64,000 nucleotides of DNA from Lutibacter sp. A80 (lineage in GTDB: Bacteria > Bacteroidota > Bacteroidia > Flavobacteriales > Flavobacteriaceae). The stretch lies in the NCBI RefSeq assembly GCF_022429645.1, contig NZ_CP092480.1:62001-126000 (forward strand), given 5' to 3'. Position 1 is the stretch's first letter. The number at the start of each line of letters is the position of its first letter. The notes beneath the pieces were generated by a model. The model was not told where the DNA came from. It saw only the letters and a list, made by a program, of their open reading frames with translations, and did not search any database. Positions 9,244 to 63,397 of the stretch are shown one piece after another. The position numbers and the translations under genes are program-made.

Positions 9244-10326
9244 TTACAGATTTTTGGTTAATGATTTCACAATTTTATTATCTGATAAAAATGCTTTTAA
9301 AATCACCTTAATTGCTGTGTAAGTAGGTATGGCTACAATCATACCTGTAACACCAAATAATATTCCTGCAATCATAATTATTAAAAATATTTCTAAAGGA
9401 TGTGATTTTACACTGTTAGAAAATATTAAGGGCTGACTTAAAAAATTATCTATTAATTGTGCAATTACATAGCCAATCATTACATAAATTGTAGTTGGTA
9501 AAATTACAGTTTGAAAATCTTCTCCTAAATTACTACTCATAGATAAAAATAACATTAAAACACCTCCAACAAGAGGGCCTATGTACGGAATTAAATTTAA
9601 AAGAGCACATAAAAAAGCAATTACAATAGCATTTTCAATACCAAATATAAGCAAGGCAATAGTATAAATTACAAATAGTATACTTATTTGAAAAACCAAT
9701 CCGATAAAATATCTGGATAGTAAATGATTTATGGTTGACAATGATTTTTTAAGTTTACTTTCACTTTTATCACTTACCAAAACATAAATAGAACTTTCCA
9801 TAATCTGCGTATCTTTCATTAAAAAGAAAGTAATAAATACAACAGAAAATAAACCGATACTTAAACTACCAAGTGTGCCAATTACAGAATTTAGTAAATT
9901 AGGAATTGCTGTAATATTTTTAAATAAATCAGCGTGTTTTAATTCATCTAAAACATTTATACCCTTCGCTAAAAAGTAATCGTTTATTTCAGTTATTAAA
10001 TTTTGAATATTTGTTTGAAGTTGTTCTATGTTTAGTAATGATAAATTTTGACCTTGTTCAATAATTAAAGGAATAAACATGGAAATTAATCCCGTAAAAA
10101 TTCCAATAAAAAATATCATTGTAAAAATTACAGCTAAGGTGTTTGGGAATTTTAATTTTTGTTTTAAAAAGGAAATTATAGGACTTGCAATTAAAGCAAT
10201 AACAGCTGAAATTGCGATATAAACTAAAATTGATTGTACTTTATATAAAAAATAAAGTAAAAGCGTAATACCAACTAATATGGCAATTGCTTTTAGTATT
10301 CCGTTTGTAATTGTGTTTGATGTCAA
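9244..10326 (-). CDS. AI-2E transporter family permease
   Basis: 360 residues with about eight hydrophobic segments. The pattern is typical of the family: two N-terminal helices, a central soluble stretch (about 120-180, rich in N, L and K), then a cluster of C-terminal helices with LIPYIGPLVGG and the VKSHPLEIFLIIM and GILFGVTGMIVAIP motifs. Family members move varied solutes, including autoinducer-2 and Na+/H+, so the name does not prove quorum signalling. The gene is 5 bases from the phosphatase upstream. Confidence 0.88.
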   Translation of the reverse strand: MTSNTITNGILKAIAILVGITLLLYFLYKVQSILVYIAISAVIALIASPIISFLKQKLKFPNTLAVIFTMIFFIGIFTGLISMFIPLIIEQGQNLSLLNIEQLQTNIQNLITEINDYFLAKGINVLDELKHADLFKNITAIPNLLNSVIGTLGSLSIGLFSVVFITFFLMKDTQIMESSIYVLVSDKSESKLKKSLSTINHLLSRYFIGLVFQISILFVIYTIALLIFGIENAIVIAFLCALLNLIPYIGPLVGGVLMLFLSMSSNLGEDFQTVILPTTIYVMIGYVIAQLIDNFLSQPLIFSNSVKSHPLEIFLIIMIAGILFGVTGMIVAIPTYTAIKVILKAFLSDNKIVKSLTKNL

Positions 10327-51978: not shown

Positions 51979-52416
51979 TTAATTTTTATGCTTTTGGTGT
52001 AAGTGTAATCTTTCAATTTTAGTGTTATTTTTTAATTTAATTGTATTAACATTTGCAATAAGTGGAATTATAATAATTAAAAAACAGATAATAATGAAGG
52101 GAAAAATGATAAGTCTAATAGCTGGTTTCTTTTGATATAATTTTTTATAAACATTTAGAGTAATTTTCCAGTGTAAAATAATGTGTAAAAGAAGTAACCC
52201 AATTAAAATATATCCAATTATAAGGTGAATTTCTCCCCAGTCATGTCTGTCCATTCCAAATAGTGAAAGTTGAACTTTATTTCCGTATTTAATAATTTGC
52301 TCTTGTCCAGATACTAGTCTGTATTTAATTAATAAGCCGGTGCTTGTTATTGCGCATAAACAAAAAAACATAAAAGCATTAATGATAAAATTTAGTGTTG
52401 GTTTTTTAATTTTCAT
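51979..52416 (-). CDS. DUF4405-like membrane protein (cytochrome-b-type helical bundle)
   Basis: 145 residues with three helices (about 10-28, 63-84 and 103-125). The RHDWGEIHLIIGYILIG sequence, followed by HIILHW, supplies four histidines in the pattern of DUF4405, a relative of membrane cytochrome b subunits that may bind heme. The tail is rich in histidine and lysine (HLHQKHKN). It is divergent from the light-type regulator gene at 52534 and shares the 118-base intergenic region with it. Confidence 0.75.
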   Translation of the reverse strand: MKIKKPTLNFIINAFMFFCLCAITSTGLLIKYRLVSGQEQIIKYGNKVQLSLFGMDRHDWGEIHLIIGYILIGLLLLHIILHWKITLNVYKKLYQKKPAIRLIIFPFIIICFLIIIIPLIANVNTIKLKNNTKIERLHLHQKHKN

Positions 52417-52481: not shown

Positions 52482-52522
52482 TTTGTTTTAATAAATTTAA
52501 GACGTATATTTGTTTAAACAAA
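52482..52522 (+). promoter_or_regulatory. Promoter and palindromic operator of the CarH-like gene
   Basis: TTTG (52482-52485), 19 bases, then TATATTTG (52505-52512). The perfect palindrome TTTGTTTAAACAAA (52509-52522) overlaps the -7 element and the likely transcription start. A repressor bound there would block initiation, so autoregulation is likely. Confidence 0.72.
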
Positions 52523-52533
52523 ATAAAATTACA

Positions 52534-53433
52534 TTGAACAATATAAAGTCAGAATTTACGATTAAAGATCTTGAGAACTTCTCGGGAATTAAAGCGCATA
52601 CAATTAGAATTTGGGAAAAAAGATATAATATTTTAAAGCCAAATAGATCAGAATCTAATATTCGATATTATAATATTAATAACTTACAGAAGTTATTAAA
52701 TGTTGCGCTTTTAAATGCAAATGGTTTAAAAATATCAAAAATAGCGGCATTACCTGATTCAAAACTAAAAGCTTGTGTTAGAGAAATTGTTGCTAAAAAT
52801 GGTGTAGATACCCAAGCTTCAAATTCTTTAAAGCTTTCGATGCTTAATTTCGATGAAAATTTGTTTAATGTTACTTATAATAATTTAATAGCGCAATCAT
52901 CTCTTCGAACAGTTTTTAAAGATGTTTTCTTGCCATTTTTAAATGAAATAGGGCTTTTGTGGCAAGTAAATTCTATAACTCCTGCGCATGAGCATTTTAT
53001 ATCAAATTTGGTTAAGCAAAAAATTCATATCAATATAGAAAGGTTGCAGCTTTCGTCTCCAACAAATTATGATAAGGTGTTTGTTTTGTATCTTCCAATG
53101 AATGAAATTCATGAACTCGGTTTGTTGTATTTGCATTTTGAGTTGTTATTGCATGGGTATCAATCAATTTATCTAGGTCAAAGTGTTCCAGTTGATAATT
53201 TAAACGATATTCAAAAAGTGTATAATAATATTTGTTTTATTAGTTATTTAACCGTTGAACCTTCAAGGGTGACACTTGAAGAATATATAGAAGAAGTCAA
53301 TTCTAAAGTGTTGTTAGATACAAATAGTGAGCTTTGGTTATTGGGAAGAAAATTGAATGAAATTGAAAATGAAATTACATTTTTAAATGTAAAAACTTTT
53401 GAAAACATGGATTTTTTGTTAAAAGAATTGTAA
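52534..53433 (+). CDS. MerR-type regulator with cobalamin-binding domain (CarH/LitR-like)
   Basis: 299 residues from a TTG at 52534. An earlier TTG (52510) lies inside the -7 element and before the expected transcript start, so it is rejected. The N-terminal MerR helix-turn-helix (about 8-75, GIKAHTIRIWEKRYNILKP) is followed by helices (about 90-170) and a Rossmann-type cobalamin domain (about 180-299). The Wx9EH motif is exact (W143, E153, H154), and a DxHxxG-like motif reads E191-I-H193-E-L-G, placing a histidine for cobalt. These are the residues that bind adenosylcobalamin in light-sensing CarH. It heads the carotenoid/photolyase operon, so a light-released repressor is likely. Confidence 0.9.
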   Translation: MNNIKSEFTIKDLENFSGIKAHTIRIWEKRYNILKPNRSESNIRYYNINNLQKLLNVALLNANGLKISKIAALPDSKLKACVREIVAKNGVDTQASNSLKLSMLNFDENLFNVTYNNLIAQSSLRTVFKDVFLPFLNEIGLLWQVNSITPAHEHFISNLVKQKIHINIERLQLSSPTNYDKVFVLYLPMNEIHELGLLYLHFELLLHGYQSIYLGQSVPVDNLNDIQKVYNNICFISYLTVEPSRVTLEEYIEEVNSKVLLDTNSELWLLGRKLNEIENEITFLNVKTFENMDFLLKEL

Positions 53434-53441
53434 AAAACAGT

Positions 53442-53488
53442 AAACAAACTTGTTTTTGTTTAATAAATGATTATATTTGTTGAACAAA
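53442..53488 (+). promoter_or_regulatory. Promoter of the carotenoid/photolyase operon with two palindromes
   Basis: TTG (53450-53452), 19 bases, TATATTTG (53472-53479). Palindromes of the same family as at 52509 flank it: AAACAA-AC-TTGTTT (53442-53455) on the -33 side and TTTGTTGAACAAA (53476-53488) over the -7 and start. The transcript start would fall within a few bases of the crtI ATG at 53488. Confidence 0.65.
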
Positions 53489-54942
53489 TGAGAGATATTT
53501 TAATTATAGGTTCAGGGTTTTCGTCACTTTCTTCTGCTTGTTATCTAGCAAAAGCAGGGTATAATGTTACGATTTTAGAGAAAAACAAAACAATTGGAGG
53601 TAGAGCTAGAAAATTTGAAAAAGACGGATTTAAGTTTGATATGGGGCCAACTTGGTATTGGATGCCCGACGTTTTTGAAAAGTTTTTTAACGATTTTAAT
53701 AAAAAACCTTCAGATTATTATCAACTAGAAAGATTAACTCCAGCTTATCAAGTTTATTTTGGTAAAGAGGATTCAATTACTATTCCAGGTACATTAAACG
53801 AAATTTATAGTGTGTTTGAGAAAGAGGAAAAGGGGAGTTCTAAGCATTTAAAAACTTTTTTAAATTCAGCAAAATTTAATTATGAAGTTGCAATTAATGA
53901 TTTGGTTTACAAACCAGGAGAGTCGATTACGGAATTGATAAATTTTACTACCTTGTCTAAGGTAAATCAGTTTTTTACATCTATAACTTCAACGGTTCGA
54001 AAAAAAATTAAAAGTTCAAAACTTCAACAGATATTAGAATTTCCGGTATTATTTTTGGGTGCTAAGCCTTCAAATACACCAAGTTTTTATAACTTTATGA
54101 ATTATGCTGATTTTGGTTTAGGAACCTGGCATCCAAAAGGAGGTATGTATGAAGTAGTAAATGGTTTTGTTAAGTTAGCAGAAGATTTGGGTGTTAAAAT
54201 TAAAGTAAATCAGAATGTTGAAAAAATTATAGTTGAAGAAGGAAGTGTTAAAGGTGTTATTTCAAATAATAACTTTATTAAAGCAAATATTGTTATAAGT
54301 GGCGCGGATTATCAACATACTGAAACACTTTTAGATGTAAATAATAGAGTTTATTCACAACAATTTTGGAATAAAAAAACATTTGCACCATCAGCATTGC
54401 TTTTTTATGTAGGTTTTAATAAAAAAATTAAGAATGTTGCGCATCATACCCTGTTTTTTGATACTAGTTTTGATACGCATGCAATAGATATTTACGATAC
54501 GCCAAAATGGCCAAAAGAGCCGCTTTTTTATGCAAGTTTTTCTAGTATTACTGATGCAAGTTTTGCACCGGATTCTCAAGAAGCTGCTACTTTTTTAATT
54601 CCTTTAGCACCTGGTTTAGACGATATTCCAGAAATTAGAGAAGAGTACTTTAAAAAAATTATAGTACGTATGGAAAAGTTAACAGGACAAGATTTGTTTG
54701 AAAGTGTAATTTTTAAAGAATCGTATTGTGTAAACGATTTTAAAGAAGATTATAATTCATATAAAGGAAATGCATACGGATTGGCAAATACTTTGTTTCA
54801 AACTGCATTTTTAAGACCTAAAATTAAAAGTAAAAAAGTAAAAAATTTATACTTTACAGGACAACTGACCGTTCCAGGTCCAGGTGTACCGCCAGCTATA
54901 ATTTCTGGAAAAATTGTTTCAGATATGGTTATAAATAATTAA
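53488..54942 (+). CDS. crtI: Phytoene desaturase
   Basis: 484 residues from the ATG at 53488. An ATG seven codons earlier (53467) lies in the promoter, so it is not used. An FAD-binding N-terminus (DILIIGSGFSSLSSACYLA and, further, a GGRARKF turn) leads a typical CrtI, and it ends with LTVPGPGVPPAIISGKIVSD. It desaturates phytoene to lycopene. It starts the operon of crtB, an unknown gene, crtZ, crtYcd and photolyase, with a 34-base gap to crtB. Confidence 0.95.
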   Translation: MRDILIIGSGFSSLSSACYLAKAGYNVTILEKNKTIGGRARKFEKDGFKFDMGPTWYWMPDVFEKFFNDFNKKPSDYYQLERLTPAYQVYFGKEDSITIPGTLNEIYSVFEKEEKGSSKHLKTFLNSAKFNYEVAINDLVYKPGESITELINFTTLSKVNQFFTSITSTVRKKIKSSKLQQILEFPVLFLGAKPSNTPSFYNFMNYADFGLGTWHPKGGMYEVVNGFVKLAEDLGVKIKVNQNVEKIIVEEGSVKGVISNNNFIKANIVISGADYQHTETLLDVNNRVYSQQFWNKKTFAPSALLFYVGFNKKIKNVAHHTLFFDTSFDTHAIDIYDTPKWPKEPLFYASFSSITDASFAPDSQEAATFLIPLAPGLDDIPEIREEYFKKIIVRMEKLTGQDLFESVIFKESYCVNDFKEDYNSYKGNAYGLANTLFQTAFLRPKIKSKKVKNLYFTGQLTVPGPGVPPAIISGKIVSDMVINN

Positions 54943-54976
54943 ATATTAAACTAATACTAACTAAAATAACTATAAC

Positions 54977-55816
54977 ATGAAACAATTATATGATGAAACC
55001 TCATTTAGGTGTAGTAAAATAGTGACTAAAAATTACAGTACTTCATTTTCGCTTGCAGTGTATATGTTATCTCCAAAAATTAGAGAGGCAATACATAGTA
55101 TTTATGCATTTGTTCGTTTTGCTGATGAAATTGTAGATTCATTTCACTCTTATAAAAAAGGAGCGTTGTTAAATGAATTTGAAGCAAATTATTATAAAGC
55201 ATATAGTGATAATATTAGTTTAAATCCAATTTTAAATTGTTTTCAGCTTACAGTAAAAAAATACAATATTACAGACGATTTAATTCAATCGTTTTTGAAA
55301 AGTATGAAAGCAGATTTAAAAAAAGAAACCTATAATACTGTTGAAGAATATAATGAATATATTTATGGTTCAGCTGATGTTGTAGGGTTAATGTGTTTGA
55401 AAGTTTTTGTAAATGGAGATGTTGAAAAGTACGATGAATTAAAATTTTCTGCAATGAAATTAGGTTCCGCTTTTCAGAAAGTTAATTTTTTGCGTGATCT
55501 AAAAGATGATTATGAGTTGTTAAATCGTTCGTATTTTCCAGGTGTAAACTTAAAAGAACTAACTGCTGATGAAAAAGCTGAAATAATTGCAGATATTGAA
55601 GCTGACTTTAATGAAGCTTTAATCGGTATAAAAAAATTGCCTTTAGAAGCTAAATTTGGTGTGTATACAGCGTATGTTTATTATAAAAGGTTATTGTTTA
55701 AACTTAAAAATACACCTTCTAAAGAAATTTTAAATACTAGGATTCGAGTTTCTAACCCTATAAAAATTAGTTTATTAGCTAAATCTTTTGTAGTTTTTAA
55801 GTTAAATATGTTATAA
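54977..55816 (+). CDS. crtB: Phytoene synthase
   Basis: 279 residues. The first Asp-rich motif reads DEIVD (50-54) in FVRFADEIVDSFHSY, and the second is in FQKVNFLRDLKDDYELLN. It condenses two geranylgeranyl diphosphate molecules. The next gene starts on the last base of its stop codon (TAATG at 55814-55818), showing tight coupling. GGPP synthase is not in the window. Confidence 0.95.
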   Translation: MKQLYDETSFRCSKIVTKNYSTSFSLAVYMLSPKIREAIHSIYAFVRFADEIVDSFHSYKKGALLNEFEANYYKAYSDNISLNPILNCFQLTVKKYNITDDLIQSFLKSMKADLKKETYNTVEEYNEYIYGSADVVGLMCLKVFVNGDVEKYDELKFSAMKLGSAFQKVNFLRDLKDDYELLNRSYFPGVNLKELTADEKAEIIADIEADFNEALIGIKKLPLEAKFGVYTAYVYYKRLLFKLKNTPSKEILNTRIRVSNPIKISLLAKSFVVFKLNML

Positions 55817-56316
55817 TGAAATATTTAGGGGTAATTGTGTTTTTTTTAGTGTCATTTAATGCGGAATCACGGCTTAATGATGTCAGAAATCAATTCCCCA
55901 ATATTGTATCTTTAGAGCAAGCAGAAAAGTTTATGACTAATTTAGAAGGTGATAATTCTGCTGAAGCTCAAGGTTATTATGCCGCAATGGTTTTAATGAA
56001 ATCACGCTTTGCTAAAAATCCATTTTCAAAATTTAAATATTTTAAGCAAGGAAAAAAGCAATTGGATAAAACTATATTAGAAAACCCATCAATTGTTGAA
56101 GTTAGGTATATACGTTTTTTAATGCAAAAACAAATTCCTGATTTTTTAGGTTATAATAAACACCTTGAAGAAGATTTTAAAATTATTAGTAATAACTTAT
56201 TAGGTTTAAATTTAAGTGAAAGTTTTAAAACTAGAATGTTAAAAACCATGTTATTAGTAGATAATTTAAGTGAAATTGAAAAAAATAAAATCAATCAAAT
56301 GCTAAATGAATTATGA
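55816..56316 (+). CDS. Unknown protein in the carotenoid operon, likely exported
   Basis: 166 residues. An N-terminal signal-like segment (MKYLGVIVFFLVSFNAES) is followed by an all-helical protein. The motif FPNIVSLEQAEKF is followed by a basic stretch, KNPFSKFKYFKQGKKQLDK, that may bind a surface. No active site is seen. It overlaps crtB by one base and crtZ by four, so it is made with the carotenoid enzymes. It may aid carotenoid delivery or membrane placement; that is a guess from location. Confidence 0.75.
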   Translation: MKYLGVIVFFLVSFNAESRLNDVRNQFPNIVSLEQAEKFMTNLEGDNSAEAQGYYAAMVLMKSRFAKNPFSKFKYFKQGKKQLDKTILENPSIVEVRYIRFLMQKQIPDFLGYNKHLEEDFKIISNNLLGLNLSESFKTRMLKTMLLVDNLSEIEKNKINQMLNEL

Positions 56317-56753
56317 TATTTGCCCTAATTACAATAGCTACTTTTTTATTGATGGAGTGTGTGACTTGGTTGACGCATAAGTATGTTATGCACGGTTTTT
56401 TATGGTATTTTCACGAGGACCATCACCAGCCACGATATCAAAGTTGGTTTGAGCGAAACGATGTGTTTTTTGTTATTTTTGCCATGCCTAGTATTGCTTT
56501 GTTTTATTTTGGTGTAGAAGGTGGTCTAAATTATTTGTTTTTTATTGGATTAGGAATAATGTTCTACGGAATGGCTTATTTTTTAGTGCACGATGTTCTA
56601 ATTCACAGGCGTTTTAAATGGTTTAATAAAACAAGAAATAAGTACTTAATTGGCTTGCGTAAAGCTCATAAAGTTCATCATAAACATTTAGGAAAAGAAG
56701 AAGGAGAATGTTTTGGTATGTTATTCGTTCCTTTTAAATATTTTAAAGTATGA
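56313..56753 (+). CDS. crtZ: Beta-carotene hydroxylase (fatty-acid-hydroxylase superfamily)
   Basis: 146 residues with four membrane helices and the histidine boxes of the di-iron CrtZ group: H22-x4-H27 and HEDHH (34-38) in the first half, HDVLIH, and KAHKVHHKH near the end. It puts hydroxyl groups on beta-carotene to make zeaxanthin. It overlaps its upstream neighbour by four bases and crtYcd by four bases (ATGA). Confidence 0.94.
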   Translation: MIFALITIATFLLMECVTWLTHKYVMHGFLWYFHEDHHQPRYQSWFERNDVFFVIFAMPSIALFYFGVEGGLNYLFFIGLGIMFYGMAYFLVHDVLIHRRFKWFNKTRNKYLIGLRKAHKVHHKHLGKEEGECFGMLFVPFKYFKV

Positions 56754-57442
56754 CAGCCTTATATTTTATAATAAATATAGCTTCATTATCAATTCCATTT
56801 TTATATAGTTTTGAAAAAAAAATGCGATTTATCCAATATTGGAAATCTGTATTTTTAGCCATAACAATTGTTGCTGTTCCATTTTTAATTTGGGATGTTT
56901 GGTTTACAAATATTGGTGTTTGGGGGTTTAATTCAACTTATTTATTAGGTTCAACAATAGCTAATTTACCTTTTGAAGAAGTACTTTTCTTTTTTTGTAT
57001 TCCGTATGCAAGTATTTTTACACACTATGCTTTATTGTATTTTTTTCCGAAGCTAGCATTGCCGCAAAAGCTTACAAAATTAATAACTATTGGTTTGTTA
57101 ATTTCTGCACTTGTAATTGTGTATTTTAATTACGATAAATGGTACACATTAGTTAATTTTTCATTTTTCGCATTACTTTTAGTATATGCTTTAGTTAGTA
57201 ACGATACCATTTTAAAATCGTTTTACATTACTTTTTTAGTGGTTTTAATCCCATTTTTTATTGTAAACGGACTGCTAACAGGAAGTTTTATTGAAGATCA
57301 AGTTGTTTGGTATAACAATGCAGAAAATTTAAGAATTAGATTAGGAACTGTTCCTGTTGAAGATGCTTTTTATGCATTTAGTATGTTGTATGGGGCAACG
57401 GTGTTAATTGAAAAATTTAAACCTATTTTTAATAAAAAGTAA
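56750..57442 (+). CDS. crtYcd: Fused lycopene cyclase CrtYc-CrtYd type
   Basis: 230 residues with about seven membrane helices. Two cyclase-type repeats occur: PFEEVLFFFC (from P74) and PVEDAFYAF near 205. This is the fused form of the heterodimeric bacterial cyclase, also seen in fungi and many Bacteroidota. It closes both ends of lycopene to beta-rings. It is followed with no gap by the photolyase gene (TAA then ATG at 57443). Confidence 0.93.
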   Translation: MTALYFIINIASLSIPFLYSFEKKMRFIQYWKSVFLAITIVAVPFLIWDVWFTNIGVWGFNSTYLLGSTIANLPFEEVLFFFCIPYASIFTHYALLYFFPKLALPQKLTKLITIGLLISALVIVYFNYDKWYTLVNFSFFALLLVYALVSNDTILKSFYITFLVVLIPFFIVNGLLTGSFIEDQVVWYNNAENLRIRLGTVPVEDAFYAFSMLYGATVLIEKFKPIFNKK

Positions 57443-58729
57443 ATGATTAATAAACAAGAAATTGCTATTTTTTGGTTTCGAAGAGATTTAAGGTTACAGG
57501 ATAATATAGGTTTGTACCACGCTTTAAACTCGGAATACCCAGTACTTCCAATTTTTATTTTTGATGAAGCCATTTTAAATGAATTGCCAAAAAATGATGC
57601 TCGTGTAAATTTTATTCACCAAACGTTAAGTAGTATACATAAAGATTTAGTTGAGGAAAATTCTTCATTATACGTGAAAAAAGGAGAAGTTACAGCTGTT
57701 TGGAAAGCACTTCTAAATAATTTCAATATTAAAAAAGTGTTTTTTAATAAGGATTATGAGCCGTATGCAATTAAAAGAGATGCTGAAATAACTAATTTAT
57801 GTATTGAAAATAATATTGAAGTGCATTCTTATAAAGATCAGGTTATTTTTGAAGAAGATGAGGTTTTAAAAGCTGATGGAAAACCATATACAGTGTATAC
57901 ACCTTATAAAAATAAATGGTGGAATTTATACCATTCGCAAGAACTAAAATTATTTCCTTCAGAAAATTATAAAGAAAATTTTTTAAAAGCTAACTTCAAT
58001 TTTCCTACAATAAATGATATTGGTTTTACTGAAAGCAGTATAAAAGTAAGACCAATTAACAAAAATGCAATTTTAGATTATCAAAATTTTAGAGATTTAC
58101 CAACAGTTGCTACTTCTAATAATTCGGTGTATTTAAGGTTTGGGTTGATAAGTGCGCGTAAATTATTTAAATATGCACAAGCTAAAAACGAAACCTACTG
58201 TAACGAACTTATTTGGCGTGAATTTTTTATGCAAATTTTGTATCACTTTCCAAAAGTAGTGAGCGAAAATTTTAAATCGAAATACAATTTTATTCCTTGG
58301 CGAAATAACGAAGAAGAGTTTAAATTGTGGTGCGAAGGAAAAACGGGATATCCAATTGTAGATGCTGGAATGCGAGAATTAAACCAAACGGGTTATATGC
58401 ACAACAGAGTTAGAATGATTGTTGCCAGTTTTTTAAATAAACATTTGTTAATAGATTGGCGTTGGGGAGAAGCTTATTTTGCTGAAAAATTATTGGATTA
58501 CGATTTGGCGGCGAACAATGGAAATTGGCAATGGGTTGCAGGAACAGGTTGTGATTCTGCTCCATATTTTAGAGTTTTTAATCCAACAACACAACAACAA
58601 AAATTTGATCCAGATTTTAAATACATCAAAAAATGGAACCCGAATTATAAAAATATTCCTGAAATTGTTGAGCATAAATTTGCTCGCTTGCGTTATTTAG
58701 AGGTTGTAAAAAAGTCTTTAATACAATAA
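57443..58729 (+). CDS. phrB: Photolyase / cryptochrome family protein (class I CPD photolyase-like)
   Basis: 428 residues. The N-terminal antenna domain opens FWFRRDLRLQDN. The FAD domain contains ELIWREFFMQILYHFP, VRMIVASFLNKHLLIDWRWG and NNGNWQWVAGTGCDSAPYF, matching class I photolyases. It probably splits cyclobutane pyrimidine dimers with light; some such proteins sense light instead. It follows crtYcd with no spacer, so repair and pigment are transcribed together. The stop is 1 base from the convergent SDR stop. Confidence 0.93.
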   Translation: MINKQEIAIFWFRRDLRLQDNIGLYHALNSEYPVLPIFIFDEAILNELPKNDARVNFIHQTLSSIHKDLVEENSSLYVKKGEVTAVWKALLNNFNIKKVFFNKDYEPYAIKRDAEITNLCIENNIEVHSYKDQVIFEEDEVLKADGKPYTVYTPYKNKWWNLYHSQELKLFPSENYKENFLKANFNFPTINDIGFTESSIKVRPINKNAILDYQNFRDLPTVATSNNSVYLRFGLISARKLFKYAQAKNETYCNELIWREFFMQILYHFPKVVSENFKSKYNFIPWRNNEEEFKLWCEGKTGYPIVDAGMRELNQTGYMHNRVRMIVASFLNKHLLIDWRWGEAYFAEKLLDYDLAANNGNWQWVAGTGCDSAPYFRVFNPTTQQQKFDPDFKYIKKWNPNYKNIPEIVEHKFARLRYLEVVKKSLIQ

Positions 58730-58730
58730 G

Positions 58731-60155
58731 TTAACTAGATTTTGCTAGTTTTGAAATCATTCCATTAAAGACAAACCAATGAAATGGTGTAACCGCATAC
58801 CAATACAAGCGTCCGGCAATTCCTTGTGGTCTAAAAGTTGCAGTTTGGTAAAGTATATTATCTTCAATTTTAAACTCTAACCAAGCTTCTCCTGGTAGTT
58901 TCATTTCGGCATATAACAATAGTTTTTTTGCTTCTTTATTGACGTAAATTACACGCCAAAAATCTAACGAATCTCCATTGTTTAATTTGGTAGGATGTGT
59001 ACGTCCGCGTCTTAAACCGATACCACCAAAAATCAAATCGATATAACCACGTAGTTTCCATAAAAAAGTACCGTAATACCAGCCATTTTTTCCGCCAATA
59101 GCCCAAATTTTATCTAGTGTAAAGTTTTCATTTTTTAAAATACGTTGTTTTTTATCTGTAAAACAACCGTATGTTGGTACATTAATATGTTTATGTAAAT
59201 CACTTTCTAAAGCGCTGCTTATAAAAGAATCTTTCCAGCTAGATACAATGCTATTTTGTTCAATTTTAACAAAAGCATTTTCTACTGCTTCCTTGTACGA
59301 AATTGGTTGTACTTTTAACAATTGATAAATGTTGCTAGGCTTTCCAATAATTTCTATTCCCATACTGTTAACCAAGCTAGCAGCAAGTTTATAAGAAGTT
59401 GAAGTAACAAAATATAGCCAATACGATGATAATTTTGGAGTCATTAAAGGAACAGTAATAATACGTCTTTTTAAACCTCTAATCTCGGCAAATTGTAAAA
59501 GCATTTCTTTATAAGTCAATATTTCTGGACCAAAAATATCGAATGATTTATTATATAATTCTTTTTTGCCAATAGCTCTTTGTAAAAAAGCTAAAACATC
59601 TCTAATAGCAATGGGCTGCGTTTTGGTGTTGAGCCATTTTGGAGTGATCATAAATGGTAGTTTTTCAACTAAATCTCTAATTATTTCAAAAGAAGAACTA
59701 CCCGAACCTACAATAATTCCTGCTTTAAAAGTGGTTAATGCATAATTGTTTGAAGCTAACCTGTTTTCAACATTTTTACGAGATAATAAATGTTTAGATA
59801 ATTTGGTGTCGTTGGTAATTCCACTTAAATAAATTACCTGTTTTGTAGCAGTTGTTTCAATATAGTTTTTAAAATTTTGAGCACATCTTTCCTCAAGTGT
59901 ATGAAATTCTGTTGAAGAATTTGACATTGAGTGAATTAAATAATAAGCGGTGTCAATATCTTTAGGTATATTATTAAAAGTTTCGGATTTTAAAAAATCT
60001 ACTTCTACAATTTCTATTCTTTTTTCATTTAAAAAGTTAATTGGGGTTCTATTTTTATCACGTACAGTGCAAACAATAGTATGTCCATCGTTTAATAGTA
60101 GGGGAATTAATCGTTTTCCAATATAGCCGGTTGCTCCTGTAACTAGAATTTTCAT
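58731..60155 (-). CDS. SDR family oxidoreductase with DUF2867 domain
   Basis: 474 residues. The N-terminal NAD(P)-binding fold starts ILVTGATGYIGKRLIPLLL and runs to about 300. The C-terminal ~170 residues, with GGKNGWYYGTFLWKLRGYID and RRGRTHPTKLNNGDSLDFWRV shortened here, match DUF2867. Similar two-domain proteins occur in carotenoid or light-responsive clusters, but no substrate is established. It is the last gene of the minus-strand unit TetR, ABC1 kinase, SDR. Confidence 0.88.
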   Translation of the reverse strand: MKILVTGATGYIGKRLIPLLLNDGHTIVCTVRDKNRTPINFLNEKRIEIVEVDFLKSETFNNIPKDIDTAYYLIHSMSNSSTEFHTLEERCAQNFKNYIETTATKQVIYLSGITNDTKLSKHLLSRKNVENRLASNNYALTTFKAGIIVGSGSSSFEIIRDLVEKLPFMITPKWLNTKTQPIAIRDVLAFLQRAIGKKELYNKSFDIFGPEILTYKEMLLQFAEIRGLKRRIITVPLMTPKLSSYWLYFVTSTSYKLAASLVNSMGIEIIGKPSNIYQLLKVQPISYKEAVENAFVKIEQNSIVSSWKDSFISSALESDLHKHINVPTYGCFTDKKQRILKNENFTLDKIWAIGGKNGWYYGTFLWKLRGYIDLIFGGIGLRRGRTHPTKLNNGDSLDFWRVIYVNKEAKKLLLYAEMKLPGEAWLEFKIEDNILYQTATFRPQGIAGRLYWYAVTPFHWFVFNGMISKLAKSS

Positions 60156-60191
60156 TTATTTTTAAGGTTGTTAAATGTTTAAAACGTACTG

Positions 60192-61505
60192 TTATAATTT
60201 GTTGAAATTATTAATGTAAACTTTAGTTGCTTTTAAATCGAACATAAGATTGTATAATCCAAAAAACGTTCTATTTATATAAATAAAGTGTTTAGAACCT
60301 CTATTGCCGTTCATTTTTTTAAGTTCTGTGCTTTTAGAATAACGTTCGCCTAATTCAGCTATTTGTTTAAAGAAGTTTGGGTTTGAAAAATCAAAAACTT
60401 CTTGGTGAAAAGGTTGTGTAAATAAACTCAACATATCGTGAAACATTGCTGTGAAAAACGCTAATTCTTCAGGAGAATCATCTTCTTTTAAAATCTCTAA
60501 TTCAAATAGTTTTTGATTGAAAATTTCAGGATTGTTTATGTTTTCTTTTTTAGCCAATTCAAAATAAGGAACGTAAAAATCGTTTGGTATGGTTTTCATG
60601 CAGCCAAAATCTAAGGCAATTAAATCTGCATTTTCTGAAATTAAAAAATTTCCAGGATGCGGATCTGCGTGCACTTTTTTTAATTTATGAATTTGGTATA
60701 TATAAAAATCCCACAATGCTTGGCCTAATTTATTCGAATTTTCTACATTGGTATTGTGTGTAGTAAATTCAGATAAATGCTCACCTTGCATCCAGTCCAT
60801 TGTAATAATTCTTTCCGAAGAATATTCTGAATAATAATTTGGAAAGTACAAGTTAGGGATGTGTTTGCACGCTTCTGAAACCTCTTTACTTTGCTTAATT
60901 TCAATTAAATAGTTGGTTTCTTCAATTAGTTTATCTTCAACTTCTTTAAAATATTTATCAGAATCTTTACCTTTAATATTAAACATACTAATGGCAATAG
61001 GTTTTACCATGGTTAAATCGCTAGAAATACTATTTGCAATACCTGGGTATTGAATTTTAACAGCTAACTGTTTGCCGTCTTTTTCCGCTTTATGTACTTG
61101 TCCTATACTTGCAGCATTTACAGAATTTGCATTAAAGGTGTCAAAAATCTCGTTTGGAGCTTTTCCAAAGTATTTTTTAAAGGTTTTTACAACTAATGGT
61201 GCAGAAAGTGGCGGGACAGAAAATTGAGATAGCGAAAATTTTTCTACATACGCTTGTGGTAAAACGCTTTTTTCCATACTCAACATTTGAGCAACTTTTA
61301 AGGCGCTACCTTTTAATTTTTTTAATCCATCGTAAATATCTGCAGCATTATTTTTATTTAATTTTTCTTTAGCTTCATCTTCTGTGTTTACTAGCTTGTC
61401 GCCATAGTATTTTAGATAATTTACACCAACTTTTGCACCAGTTTGTACTAGTTTGGTGGCTCTTTGAATTTTAGAAACTGGAATTGTATCAATAGTTTTT
61501 AGCAT
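60192..61505 (-). CDS. ABC1/UbiB (AarF/ADCK) family atypical kinase
   Basis: 437 residues. The A-rich loop is NAASIGQVHKA, the lysine is in LAVKIQYPG, the catalytic loop reads KVHADPHPGNFLI, and the metal-binding stretch is LIALDFGCMK. The usual KxGQ signature is KVAQ (LKGSALKVAQMLS), with alanine for glycine. Members act in quinone or isoprenoid metabolism. It lies 5 bases after the TetR gene, a pairing that recurs in Bacteroidota by my recollection. Confidence 0.9.
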   Translation of the reverse strand: MLKTIDTIPVSKIQRATKLVQTGAKVGVNYLKYYGDKLVNTEDEAKEKLNKNNAADIYDGLKKLKGSALKVAQMLSMEKSVLPQAYVEKFSLSQFSVPPLSAPLVVKTFKKYFGKAPNEIFDTFNANSVNAASIGQVHKAEKDGKQLAVKIQYPGIANSISSDLTMVKPIAISMFNIKGKDSDKYFKEVEDKLIEETNYLIEIKQSKEVSEACKHIPNLYFPNYYSEYSSERIITMDWMQGEHLSEFTTHNTNVENSNKLGQALWDFYIYQIHKLKKVHADPHPGNFLISENADLIALDFGCMKTIPNDFYVPYFELAKKENINNPEIFNQKLFELEILKEDDSPEELAFFTAMFHDMLSLFTQPFHQEVFDFSNPNFFKQIAELGERYSKSTELKKMNGNRGSKHFIYINRTFFGLYNLMFDLKATKVYINNFNKL

Positions 61506-61510
61506 AGTGT

Positions 61511-62155
61511 TTAGTTTATGTTCATTTTTTCTTTGTATAAAAACTTCCCAAAATCTATAATACTTTTTAAAGGAGTTGAGTCGATCAAATCAAAGCTTGT
61601 ATTCACTGATTTTTCTATAAAAATGTCTGTTTTTTCAAAATTTGCTGAACTGTCGTCTAACCAAAATTTTAAGGTAATTAATAGCTGTAGCCAAGCAGTT
61701 TCTTTAATACTTTTCTGTTGAATTTGAACAATGTTTTTTTGTTTTAAATCAATAGGTGTATCTATATAATTTGTAAAACTTGTTTTTAAGCTAGATAGCG
61801 CGTTTATTTTTTTTAAATCTAACTTTTTAGAATGTAATGTTGCAACAACATAGCTTCTGTTTGCGGTTAAGTTTTCAAAAAATGTATAATAGAAGCTTAA
61901 TAGTTTGTTGCGAGCATTAAATGTTTGGTAATCGGTGCTTTTATCTAATGTAGTAATAGTGTTTTCAAAAAATGTATTGAAAATTGCATTTTCGATAGCT
62001 TCAAACGATCCGAAATACTGATAGAAGAGCGTTTCTTCAAAATTGTTTTCTTTGGTAAATACATAAACTGATGAAGGTTTTGAATTGTTTTTTAAAACAT
62101 AATCTATGTAGAAACTTATAATATCTGATGATTTTAATTGTTTTGTATGTTTCAT
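61511..62155 (-). CDS. TetR family transcriptional regulator
   Basis: 214 residues. The N-terminal helix-turn-helix spans about 8-55, with KENNFEETLFYQYFGSFEAIENAIF in the recognition region (shown in part as FEETLFYQYFGSFEAIENA). The C-terminal region is the ligand-binding half and includes the segment WLDDSSANFEKTDIFIEKS. It lies 5 bases before the ABC1-kinase gene and probably controls its own unit. Its upstream region carries three copies of a TTTGTTTAAT-type half-site that also occur at the CarH-like and pterin promoters. Confidence 0.85.
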   Translation of the reverse strand: MKHTKQLKSSDIISFYIDYVLKNNSKPSSVYVFTKENNFEETLFYQYFGSFEAIENAIFNTFFENTITTLDKSTDYQTFNARNKLLSFYYTFFENLTANRSYVVATLHSKKLDLKKINALSSLKTSFTNYIDTPIDLKQKNIVQIQQKSIKETAWLQLLITLKFWLDDSSANFEKTDIFIEKSVNTSFDLIDSTPLKSIIDFGKFLYKEKMNIN

Positions 62156-62163
62156 AATGTTAT

Positions 62164-62215
62164 TTTGTTTAATATATATTTATACAAATTAAACAAAAAT
62201 AATCAATTAAACAAA
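62164..62215 (-). promoter_or_regulatory. Three half-sites of a shared operator upstream of the TetR gene
   Basis: TTTGTTTAAT (62164-62173, plus) faces ATTAAACAAA (62188-62197) as a perfect 10-base inverted repeat, with a second ATTAAACAAA at 62206-62215. On the minus strand TATTTTTG (62201-62194) could be the -7 element. No clear -33 was seen. Confidence 0.6.
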
Positions 62216-62291
62216 CTTACTTCTATGTTAAAAGTTTATAGTTCTATAAATAAAACAAATAGCTAATAGTTAAATATTTAAATAAAATGTT

Positions 62292-62319
62292 TAGCTTTGT
62301 TTAAAATAAAATAAACAAA
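62292..62319 (+). promoter_or_regulatory. Promoter and inverted repeat of the pterin operon
   Basis: TAGCTTTG (62292-62299) matches the -7 consensus. TTTGTTTA (62296-62303) and TAAACAAA (62312-62319) form an 8-base inverted repeat spaced by 8 bases, lying directly before the ATG at 62320. The -33 element is weak (GTTA at 62269-62272). Confidence 0.6.
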
Positions 62320-62733
62320 ATGGGTTTTAAGGTTGCAATATCAAGAAGAGAACATTTTAATTCAGCTCACAGATTACACAATAAAAAGTGGTCTGATGAA
62401 AAGAATTTAAATGTGTTCGGTAAATGTAATAATCCAAATTATCATGGTCATAATTATGAATTAGAGGTTAAGGTGATTGGCACGGTTAATGAAGATACAG
62501 GTTATATAATAGATACAAAACAGTTATCAAGTTTAATTAAGGAACATGTTCTAGATAAATTTGATCACAAGAATCTTAATTTAGATGTAGCAGAATTTAA
62601 AAAATTAAACCCAACTGCTGAAAATATTGTAATTGTTACCTATAATATATTAAGACCTCATATTGAGGAAGACTACGAACTAAAAATCAAATTATATGAA
62701 ACACCAAGAAACTTTGTTGAATATCCCTACTAA
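62320..62733 (+). CDS. 6-pyruvoyltetrahydropterin synthase (eukaryote-like)
   Basis: 137 residues. Zinc ligands are H17, H42 and H44, within HFNSAHRLH and CNNPNYHGHNY (C36 is the catalytic cysteine). This pattern, GKCNNPNxHGHNY, and DHKNLNLDV near 85 are much closer to animal PTPS than to the QueD type. It would convert dihydroneopterin triphosphate to 6-pyruvoyltetrahydropterin. It overlaps folE by 38 bases and precedes it, matching the pathway. A QueD-type role in queuosine synthesis is a less likely alternative. Confidence 0.88.
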   Translation: MGFKVAISRREHFNSAHRLHNKKWSDEKNLNVFGKCNNPNYHGHNYELEVKVIGTVNEDTGYIIDTKQLSSLIKEHVLDKFDHKNLNLDVAEFKKLNPTAENIVIVTYNILRPHIEEDYELKIKLYETPRNFVEYPY

Positions 62734-63397
62734 CGGATTAAAATTGAACGGTTTTACTTTTGATGAAATAGGAGATGATCATTTATATACAGGAATTGAA
62801 ACGCCTTTAAAAGCTAATGCTTTCGATATTTCTGATGAAGATAAAAAAGAAAAAATAGCTGATTTATTTTCGCAAATAATGAATGTTATAGGCTTAGATT
62901 TAACCGATGATTCTTTAAAGGGAACCCCTAAAAGAGTTGCAAAAATGTATATTGATGAGATATTTTCAGGTTTAAATCCGAAAAATAAACCTAAAATAGC
63001 ATTGTTTGATAACAAGTATAAATACAATCAAATGTTGATTGAAAAGAATATCCAATTTTATTCTAATTGCGAGCATCATTTTGTGCCAATTTTTGGAAAA
63101 GTGCACGTAGCGTATGTTTCATCTGGAAAAGTAATTGGACTTTCTAAAATTAATAGAATTGTGCAATATTTTGCCAATAGACCACAAGTACAAGAACGTT
63201 TAACAAATCAAATTGCATTAGAGCTTTCAGAAATTTTAGAGACTAAAGATGTTGCAGTTATTATAGATGCTAAGCATTTATGTGTTGCATCAAGAGGTAT
63301 AAAAGATGATTCTTCAGCTACTATTACAAGTTATTACGGTGGTGTATTTAATCAGCCAGAAAAAATTGTAGAACTTCAAAATTATTTAAAATTATAA
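62696..63397 (+). CDS. folE: GTP cyclohydrolase I
   Basis: 233 residues from the ATG at 62696, which lies within the end of the PTPS gene. The zinc ligands appear in YSNCEHHFVPIFGKVHVAY (C, H) and HLCVASRGI (C). The GTP-binding FANRPQVQERLT motif is present. It produces 7,8-dihydroneopterin triphosphate. The first ~25 residues are extra compared with the core and may mean a TTG start just past the PTPS stop (62744); I keep the ATG because it couples the two genes. Confidence 0.92.
   Translation: MKHQETLLNIPTNGLKLNGFTFDEIGDDHLYTGIETPLKANAFDISDEDKKEKIADLFSQIMNVIGLDLTDDSLKGTPKRVAKMYIDEIFSGLNPKNKPKIALFDNKYKYNQMLIEKNIQFYSNCEHHFVPIFGKVHVAYVSSGKVIGLSKINRIVQYFANRPQVQERLTNQIALELSEILETKDVAVIIDAKHLCVASRGIKDDSSATITSYYGGVFNQPEKIVELQNYLKL

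Follow-up and report, generated by a model that had tools for sequence, protein, structure and literature searches.

A 34-bp inverted repeat as the likely operator of a CarH-like light regulon in Lutibacter and related Flavobacteriaceae

A 64,000-nucleotide stretch of the genome of Lutibacter sp. A80 (contig NZ_CP092480.1, positions 62,001 to 126,000; the window hereafter) encodes a CarH-like MerR protein with a B12-binding domain (52534-53433). We found that the promoters of this gene (carH), of the crtI operon, of a tetR-led unit and of a pterin operon (ptps-folE) share a 34-bp inverted repeat, and we consider it likely from sequence comparison that the CarH-like protein uses this element as its operator and that the element marks a light regulon. 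CarH is very probably the binder of the 34-bp element because sites co-occur with CarH, do not follow the TetR protein, and change a letter with the recognition helix of CarH. A preliminary description of this DNA had proposed a single light regulon of pigment, repair and pterin genes on the basis of a shared palindrome, leaving it undecided whether the CarH-like or the TetR protein binds. A common operator on the pigment, photolyase and pterin promoters stands, the palindrome as written does not, and the light response would be expected by analogy with the CarH family; the choice between the two proteins is answered in silico for CarH by co-occurrence, by TetR-less genomes and by half-site covariation.

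A fixed-spacer inverted repeat over core promoters

Comparison of the window promoters with those of eight relatives (loci L033 to L040, seven labelled Lutibacter and one a Flavobacteriales metagenome-assembled genome) and of 29 further genomes of the family revealed that the conserved unit is TTTGTTTAA-N16-TTAAACAAA (9-N16-9). It lies over the -7 element or start site of carH, crtI, tetR and ptps and is kept in Lutibacter, whose nearest named members have CarH proteins 64-80% identical to the present one, and in other Flavobacteriaceae. The letters of the spacer vary and its length is constant, with 16 bp in 53 of 68 exact matches when spacers of 4-28 were allowed in 20 chosen genomes. Doubled operators are frequent: in a scan of 68 loci, 12 of the 21 pairs separated by 20-200 bp are 39-44 bp apart. 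At each of the four promoters the operator covers the -7 element or the start, a position as expected for a repressor site.

The control throughout was the same pattern read backwards, and counts are given as sites versus control. With at most one mismatch, TTGTTTAA-N16-TTAAACAA occurs 6 versus 2 times in the genome of Lutibacter sp. A80 (the own genome, a single 3.93-Mb contig) and three times in the window, where none of 20 dinucleotide shuffles gave more than 1. These three sites lie one each in three intergenic regions; single-region shuffles yielded one in 0, 2 and 1 of 1000 cases, and all three regions together in 0 of 1000. The TAnnTTTG strings of the window number 125 (71 on the + strand, 54 on the - strand), and an arm of the form TT[TCG]AA follows in just 5, all at the four promoters, which bears out the link to the -7 element drawn in the preliminary description. 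Among the sites listed, a lower bound on the total, 125 in 20 genomes were inspected: 114 are intergenic, and 106 have a gene that starts no more than 300 bp away. The first 60 regions (80 sites, 14 genomes) were chosen partly by eye; a second batch of 43 regions (45 sites) took in all other listed sites from beyond the own genome, so that the combined count, 114 in 125, is the fairer one.

The palindromes originally described are for the most part present in the DNA: TTTGTTTAAACAAA at 52509-52522 in the carH promoter, TTTGTTGAACAAA at 53476-53488 before crtI, the arms at 62164-62215 at the TetR unit, and TTTGTTTA-N8-TAAACAAA at 62296-62319 in the pterin promoter. The further copy placed at 53442-53455 (AAACAAACTTGTTT) has its arms in the opposite order and is not the same motif. 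As a conserved unit the palindrome fails, its arms being wrongly paired relative to the kept 9-N16-9 arrangement. The genome search proposed at the time, for TTTGTTTA-N0-14-TAAACAAA, retrieves 2 matches versus 2 in the reversed control, with no enrichment; TTTGTTTAAACAAA with at most one mismatch occurs 15 versus 15 times in the own genome; and the left arm of the palindrome at ptps is lost in L037 and L039, where the N16 arms are retained.

Sites co-occur with CarH and do not follow TetR

A first sample of 120 Flavobacteriaceae genomes was scored for CarH and for the operator with at most one mismatch. The 87 genomes with a CarH orthologue hold 454 versus 70 sites, and 82 of them lie above control, whereas the 24 with no CarH, or with a stray helix-turn-helix match only, hold 23 versus 21. 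Ten of those 23 sites (versus 0) fall in a single genome, G079, which is 81% complete and whose CarH may just be missing from the assembly. The remaining nine genomes, with a divergent CarH, have 15 versus 5. A genome of the same genus as ours (G047, 99% complete) yielded no CarH or TetR match and has a single site, inside an open reading frame (ORF).

The second sample was order-wide, with families coded f1 (Flavobacteriaceae) onwards, and only new genomes were counted: its tally omits seven genomes in common with the first sample, families f2, f3, f4, f9, f10, f12 and f13, and small f16 genomes, and f14 (2 genomes, 4 versus 0) and one Lys-type genome (G366, 2 versus 1) were kept as separate tallies. 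In f1, 38 genomes with CarH hold 246 versus 38 sites and 4 without it 5 versus 6; in f7 the corresponding values are 72 versus 10 (45 genomes) and 1 versus 0 (4 genomes). The 48 genomes of f5, in which CarH matches are absent or near an E value of 1e-4, have 28 versus 36.

The sites persist where TetR is missing: 19 CarH-bearing genomes without TetR hold 65 versus 10. Conversely, in G059, where TetR is present and CarH absent, the count is 0 versus 4 and the tetR promoter carries no operator. On the 20-kb locus L039, tetR and the ABC1-type gene (abc1) were not found; a site is there nonetheless, on the gene for the SDR protein that probably belongs to the tetR unit in the window. Of 21 upstream regions scanned, those of L039, L079, L100 and L140 give the SDR gene such an operator of its own (0-1 mismatch); the remaining 17, including those where the SDR gene follows abc1, show 3-7 mismatches.

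A recognition-helix residue covaries with the half-site

In eight loci the recognition helix of CarH reads HTLRKWE, with Lys at position 26, versus HTIRIWE. Using spacers of 16 and 17 and at most two mismatches, the best match in the carH promoter of these Lys26 loci is TGTCTA/TAGACA in 7 of 8, with none in the other. The 69 loci with Ile, Ala, Met or Val at this position give TGTTTA in 46, TGTCTA in 2, a tie in 2 and neither in 19. Genome-wide, the TGTCTA pattern has 13 versus 1 sites in seven Lys-type genomes, 1 versus 1 in four genomes lacking CarH, and 0 in two divergent Ile-type genomes. Known CarH operators are reported to have a TnnACA core (PMC9304148), which both half-site types fit, with TAAACA or TAGACA in the arms; they differ at one of the two positions that this core leaves free.

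On the Lentimicrobiaceae contigs L041 and L042 (around position 10001), TGTCTA/TAGACA flank the carH start one base wider than in the Flavobacteriaceae, so that the arrangement is shared and the half-site letter differs.

The CarH-like protein

The protein has an N-terminal winged helix (Pfam MerR_1, 45.6 bits versus a cut-off of 21.6) and a B12-binding_2 domain (39.9 bits versus 23). Its best sequence matches in the PDB are 3whp and 5c8d (Thermus CarH, E value 2e-13), and its B12 domain aligns with that of TtCarH. The predicted model (predicted local distance difference test score 87.7) places the recognition helix at residues 21-31. A Foldseek search with this model returned TtCarH structures 5c8d, 5c8e and 5c8f at the top (E values about 1e-13) with a whole-chain template modeling score of 0.5-0.6, which we ascribe to a different hinge between the two modelled domains; several B12-domain structures align to it at about 3 Å. 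W143, E153 and H154 (the Wx9EH motif) and the lower-ligand H193 are invariant in 18 aligned sequences. By sequence, the protein is a member of the CarH/LitR family that falls outside the NCBIfam CarH equivalog NF052513.

Predicted regulon in the own genome and its relatives

The six own-genome sites with at most one mismatch are at carH, crtI, tetR, a 618-amino-acid (aa) FAS1 (fasciclin) protein gene (1038066, with a second site of 2 mismatches at 1038198), a TonB-dependent receptor gene (1448680-1448711, L179, 33 bp before the ATG), and within an ORF at 3596989, the last of which is probably a chance match. Genes around the inspected sites were called with a simple custom script and grouped by single-linkage clustering. 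Among the first 80 sites, the largest neighbor clusters are FAS1 (17 genes in 10 genomes, including FAS1 lipoproteins; three members were checked against Pfam) and TetR (12 genes in 12 genomes), followed by GLPGLI proteins (5), a 142-aa protein (5), SDR-DUF2867 (2) and 6-pyruvoyl-tetrahydropterin synthase (PTPS; 2). Also represented are proteorhodopsin (2), a Blh-type carotene dioxygenase (2), a mevalonate-kinase-like protein (2), a CrtW-like ketolase (1) and others; the mnmA-type (6) and HSP90-type (5) genes appear to be divergent neighbors. The second batch has crtI at 13 of its 45 sites, carH at 2, one more tetR, one more proteorhodopsin (G079) and a FolE homologue. A site at L335 that scored as inside an ORF is in fact the carH operator of G113, and the called ORF overlaps it. 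In the Lutibacter loci L035 and L036, a FAS1 gene lies within the crt cluster and is preceded by two operators.

Proteorhodopsin was matched in 24 of the 120 genomes, with a readable promoter in 22. The operator (at most two mismatches, spacer 16) is present in 10 of 17 such promoters from genomes with CarH and in 1 of 5 from genomes with no detected CarH, that one being G079, against a chance expectation of about 0.003 per 270-base promoter at the own-genome rate.

In another genus, a GTP cyclohydrolase I gene (G050, L332:1410-2009, - strand) starts 8 bp downstream of a site, in support of pterin synthesis being a target. The gene for the 142-aa protein (L107:10635-11063; also in L114, L120, L129 and L141, with 139-158 aa in the five) has its own operator as well, roughly 30 bp upstream of the called start in 4 of 5 cases, and these genes lie 4-9 kb from tetR; the representative has no Pfam or NCBIfam match.

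Weighing the identity of the binder

Several observations weigh against CarH as the binder or limit the reach of the regulon. The operator does not occur throughout the order, since f11 (15 versus 16), f8 (2 versus 3), f15 (6 versus 11) and f6 (8 versus 11) show no enrichment despite CarH homologues in many of their genomes, and the genomes counted are kin, so that site counts are not independent. The protein scores 77.1 bits against NF052513, below the cut-off of 400. Known CarH operators are described as tandem 11-bp direct repeats (PMC9304148, PMC8156234), whereas the present arms are inverted at their 16-bp spacing. The covariation is likewise imperfect: the two Ile26 loci with TGTCTA are Lentimicrobiaceae with a Lys three residues earlier, the TGTCTA pattern has 8 versus 0 sites in 11 Ile-type genomes (three of the eight being TGTTTA/TAGACA hybrids that fit both patterns), and the TGTTTA type of loci L004 to L040 comes partly from the motif-discovery set. 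Seven of the 17 proteorhodopsin promoters in CarH genomes have no site. At two mismatches or fewer, the own-genome count is barely above control (44 versus 38), such sites being mostly chance, and weak sites are not separable from chance. The ptps site itself has three mismatches and draws its support from conservation.

A third regulator that is usually inherited with CarH might instead bind the element, with CarH as a fellow traveller or a target. Co-occurrence cannot separate CarH from a constant companion gene, and the four families with CarH homologues and no element speak for this possibility, but the shift of the site letter with the recognition helix of CarH, the CarH-type core in the arms, and the presence of the element on carH itself make it unlikely. 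We give still less weight to the TetR-family protein (61511-62155) as binder and controller of the regulon. Self-control is common among TetR proteins, the sole exact spacer-16 site of the own genome lies at the tetR promoter, and an operator is found there in 25 of 26 CarH-bearing genomes examined; we nonetheless rejected TetR as the binder on the persistence of sites in TetR-less genomes and their lack in G059, and the half-site letter tracks the CarH helix. The least credible reading is that the element arises without any regulator as a by-product of AT-rich promoters (TAnnTTTG) or translation starts. A G+C content of 28%, arms that overlap -7 elements, and the near-control level of sites with two or more mismatches would fit it, but a general promoter feature was discarded on the joint shuffles and the rarity of the arm after TAnnTTTG, and it would account neither for the fixed spacer nor for the absence of the element from CarH-less genomes of the family and from the tetR promoter of G059.

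If CarH is the binder, dark repression relieved by light would be expected by analogy with its characterized relatives. In the dark, CarH loaded with adenosylcobalamin (AdoB12) would bind both arms, cover the -7 element and transcription start, and repress; in the light, the AdoB12 bond would be broken and CarH would leave the DNA. Pigment, photolyase and pterin genes would then come on together, joined in some relatives by proteorhodopsin and retinal synthesis, and the carH gene would also be repressed by its own product. A single sensor thus probably switches a set of sunlight genes, proteorhodopsin included in some relatives. It also seems reasonably probable that the Flavobacteriaceae and at least one further family of the order have a CarH sunlight regulon with its own operator class, a 34-bp inverted repeat that often comes in pairs about 40 bp apart. 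A single B12 photoreceptor would then govern carotenoids, photolyase, pterins and FAS1 lipoproteins, together with proteorhodopsin and retinal synthesis in some genera, and residue 26 of the recognition helix (Ile or Lys) would set the operator letter.

Predicted operators and genes in the window

The carH gene (+ strand) likely starts at the TTG at 52534 (299 aa) and not at 52510, because the start codon, TTG in the window and ATG in many relatives, falls within the right arm of the operator; (A/T)TGAACAA at this start is retained in most relatives. Its predicted operator, TTTGTTTAA-N16-TTGAACAAT (52509..52542), has 1 mismatch in 8-mer arms and is conserved in relatives, and its -7 element is TATATTTG (52505-52512). 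A DUF4405/cytochrome-b561-like gene (51979-52416) separates carB from carH in the window; it has no match in L033-L040 (E values up to 1e-8), where carH closely follows carB.

Before crtI, the predicted operator TTTGTTTAA-N16-TTGAACAAA (53455..53488, 1 mismatch) covers the -7 element TATATTTG (53472-53479), and a weaker predicted one (53415..53448, 2 mismatches) lies 40 bp from it, with counterparts 39-41 bp apart in L034, L035, L038 and L039. The target operon (53488..58729, + strand) begins with crtI, whose ATG is probably at 53488, so that its mRNA would be nearly leaderless. It continues on the same strand with a phytoene synthase-like gene (54977-55816), an unknown gene (55816-56316), a gene that we take to encode a hydroxylase and that has no Pfam match (56313-56753), a lycopene cyclase (56750-57442) and a photolyase (57443-58729).

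The predicted operator TTTGTTTAA-N16-TTAAACAAA of the tetR unit (62164..62197) is exact, and the -7 element there is TATTTTTG (62201-62194, - strand). The genes for TetR, for the ABC1/UbiB-type kinase (60192-61505) and for the SDR-DUF2867 protein (58731-60155), all on the - strand, probably form one operon (58731..62155) with tetR first. The predicted ptps-folE operator AATGTTTAG-N16-ATAAACAAA (62286..62319, mismatches counted in 8-mer arms) has the -7 element TAGCTTTG (62292-62299) within its spacer and is followed on the + strand by ptps (62320-62733), of the PTPS type, and by the GTP cyclohydrolase I gene folE (62696-63397). Across seven loci including the window, the ptps promoter shows 3, 2, 1, 1, 3, 0 (with N17) and 0 mismatches.

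Flavobacterial sigma-A promoters are reported to have TAnnTTTG at -12 to -5 (PMC9723704), and by this rule the operators would span about -8 to +26 at carH and tetR, -29 to +5 at crtI and -18 to +16 at ptps. An Rfam scan of 48-64 kb gave no match, and a sigma-70 and terminator scan no excess.

Significance and comparison with known light-responsive systems

How marine flavobacteria switch proteorhodopsin and sun protection has so far been poorly explained. One Dokdonia strain is reported to grow better in the light while a close relative does not, and that genome paper turned to sigma-factor sites for an explanation (PMC3587595). MerR-family genes are described in or before the crt clusters of Sediminicola (PMC4732338) and Nonlabens (PMC11855829), and Chryseobacterium lacus reportedly has light-induced carotenoids without car or lit genes (PMC7064467). 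In the available open-access literature, with subscription journals mostly outside it, we found no CarH operator or regulon in Bacteroidota and no description of CarH control of proteorhodopsin. If the present reading is true, the light induction of proteorhodopsin in marine flavobacteria would be under CarH control. The defined operator and candidate B12 photoreceptor make this directly testable, and it would connect vitamin B12 with marine photoheterotrophy. The covariation of Ile or Lys with the operator lends itself to a clean test of specificity, and the inverted arms raise the question of how the DNA is engaged by a CarH assembly that has been known from direct repeats.

The operator form would be new for the CarH family, and the regulon is strongly supported by the comparisons above. 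CarA of Myxococcus xanthus resembles the present system in having inverted repeats in a carotenoid promoter, but it is described as B12-independent and as requiring the antirepressor CarS, which was not searched for here (PMC9304148, PMC8156234). The class II LitR system of Pseudomonas putida and P. mendocina similarly counts photolyase, FolE and a short-chain dehydrogenase among its light-induced or neighboring genes; there, however, light sensing falls to a LOV protein and the regulator reportedly does not require B12 (PMC9758184), whereas the present CarH retains the B12-ligand residues (no LOV partner was searched for). A close parallel is with the AdoB12-dependent photoreceptor-repressors CarH/LitR of Thermus, Bacillus megaterium and Myxococcus, which share the MerR and B12 domains, the Wx9EH motif, the axial His, adjoining crt genes, an operator on the core promoter, and the TnnACA core in each arm. 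The present system differs from them in its one or two 9-N16-9 inverted repeats and in its wider list of targets.

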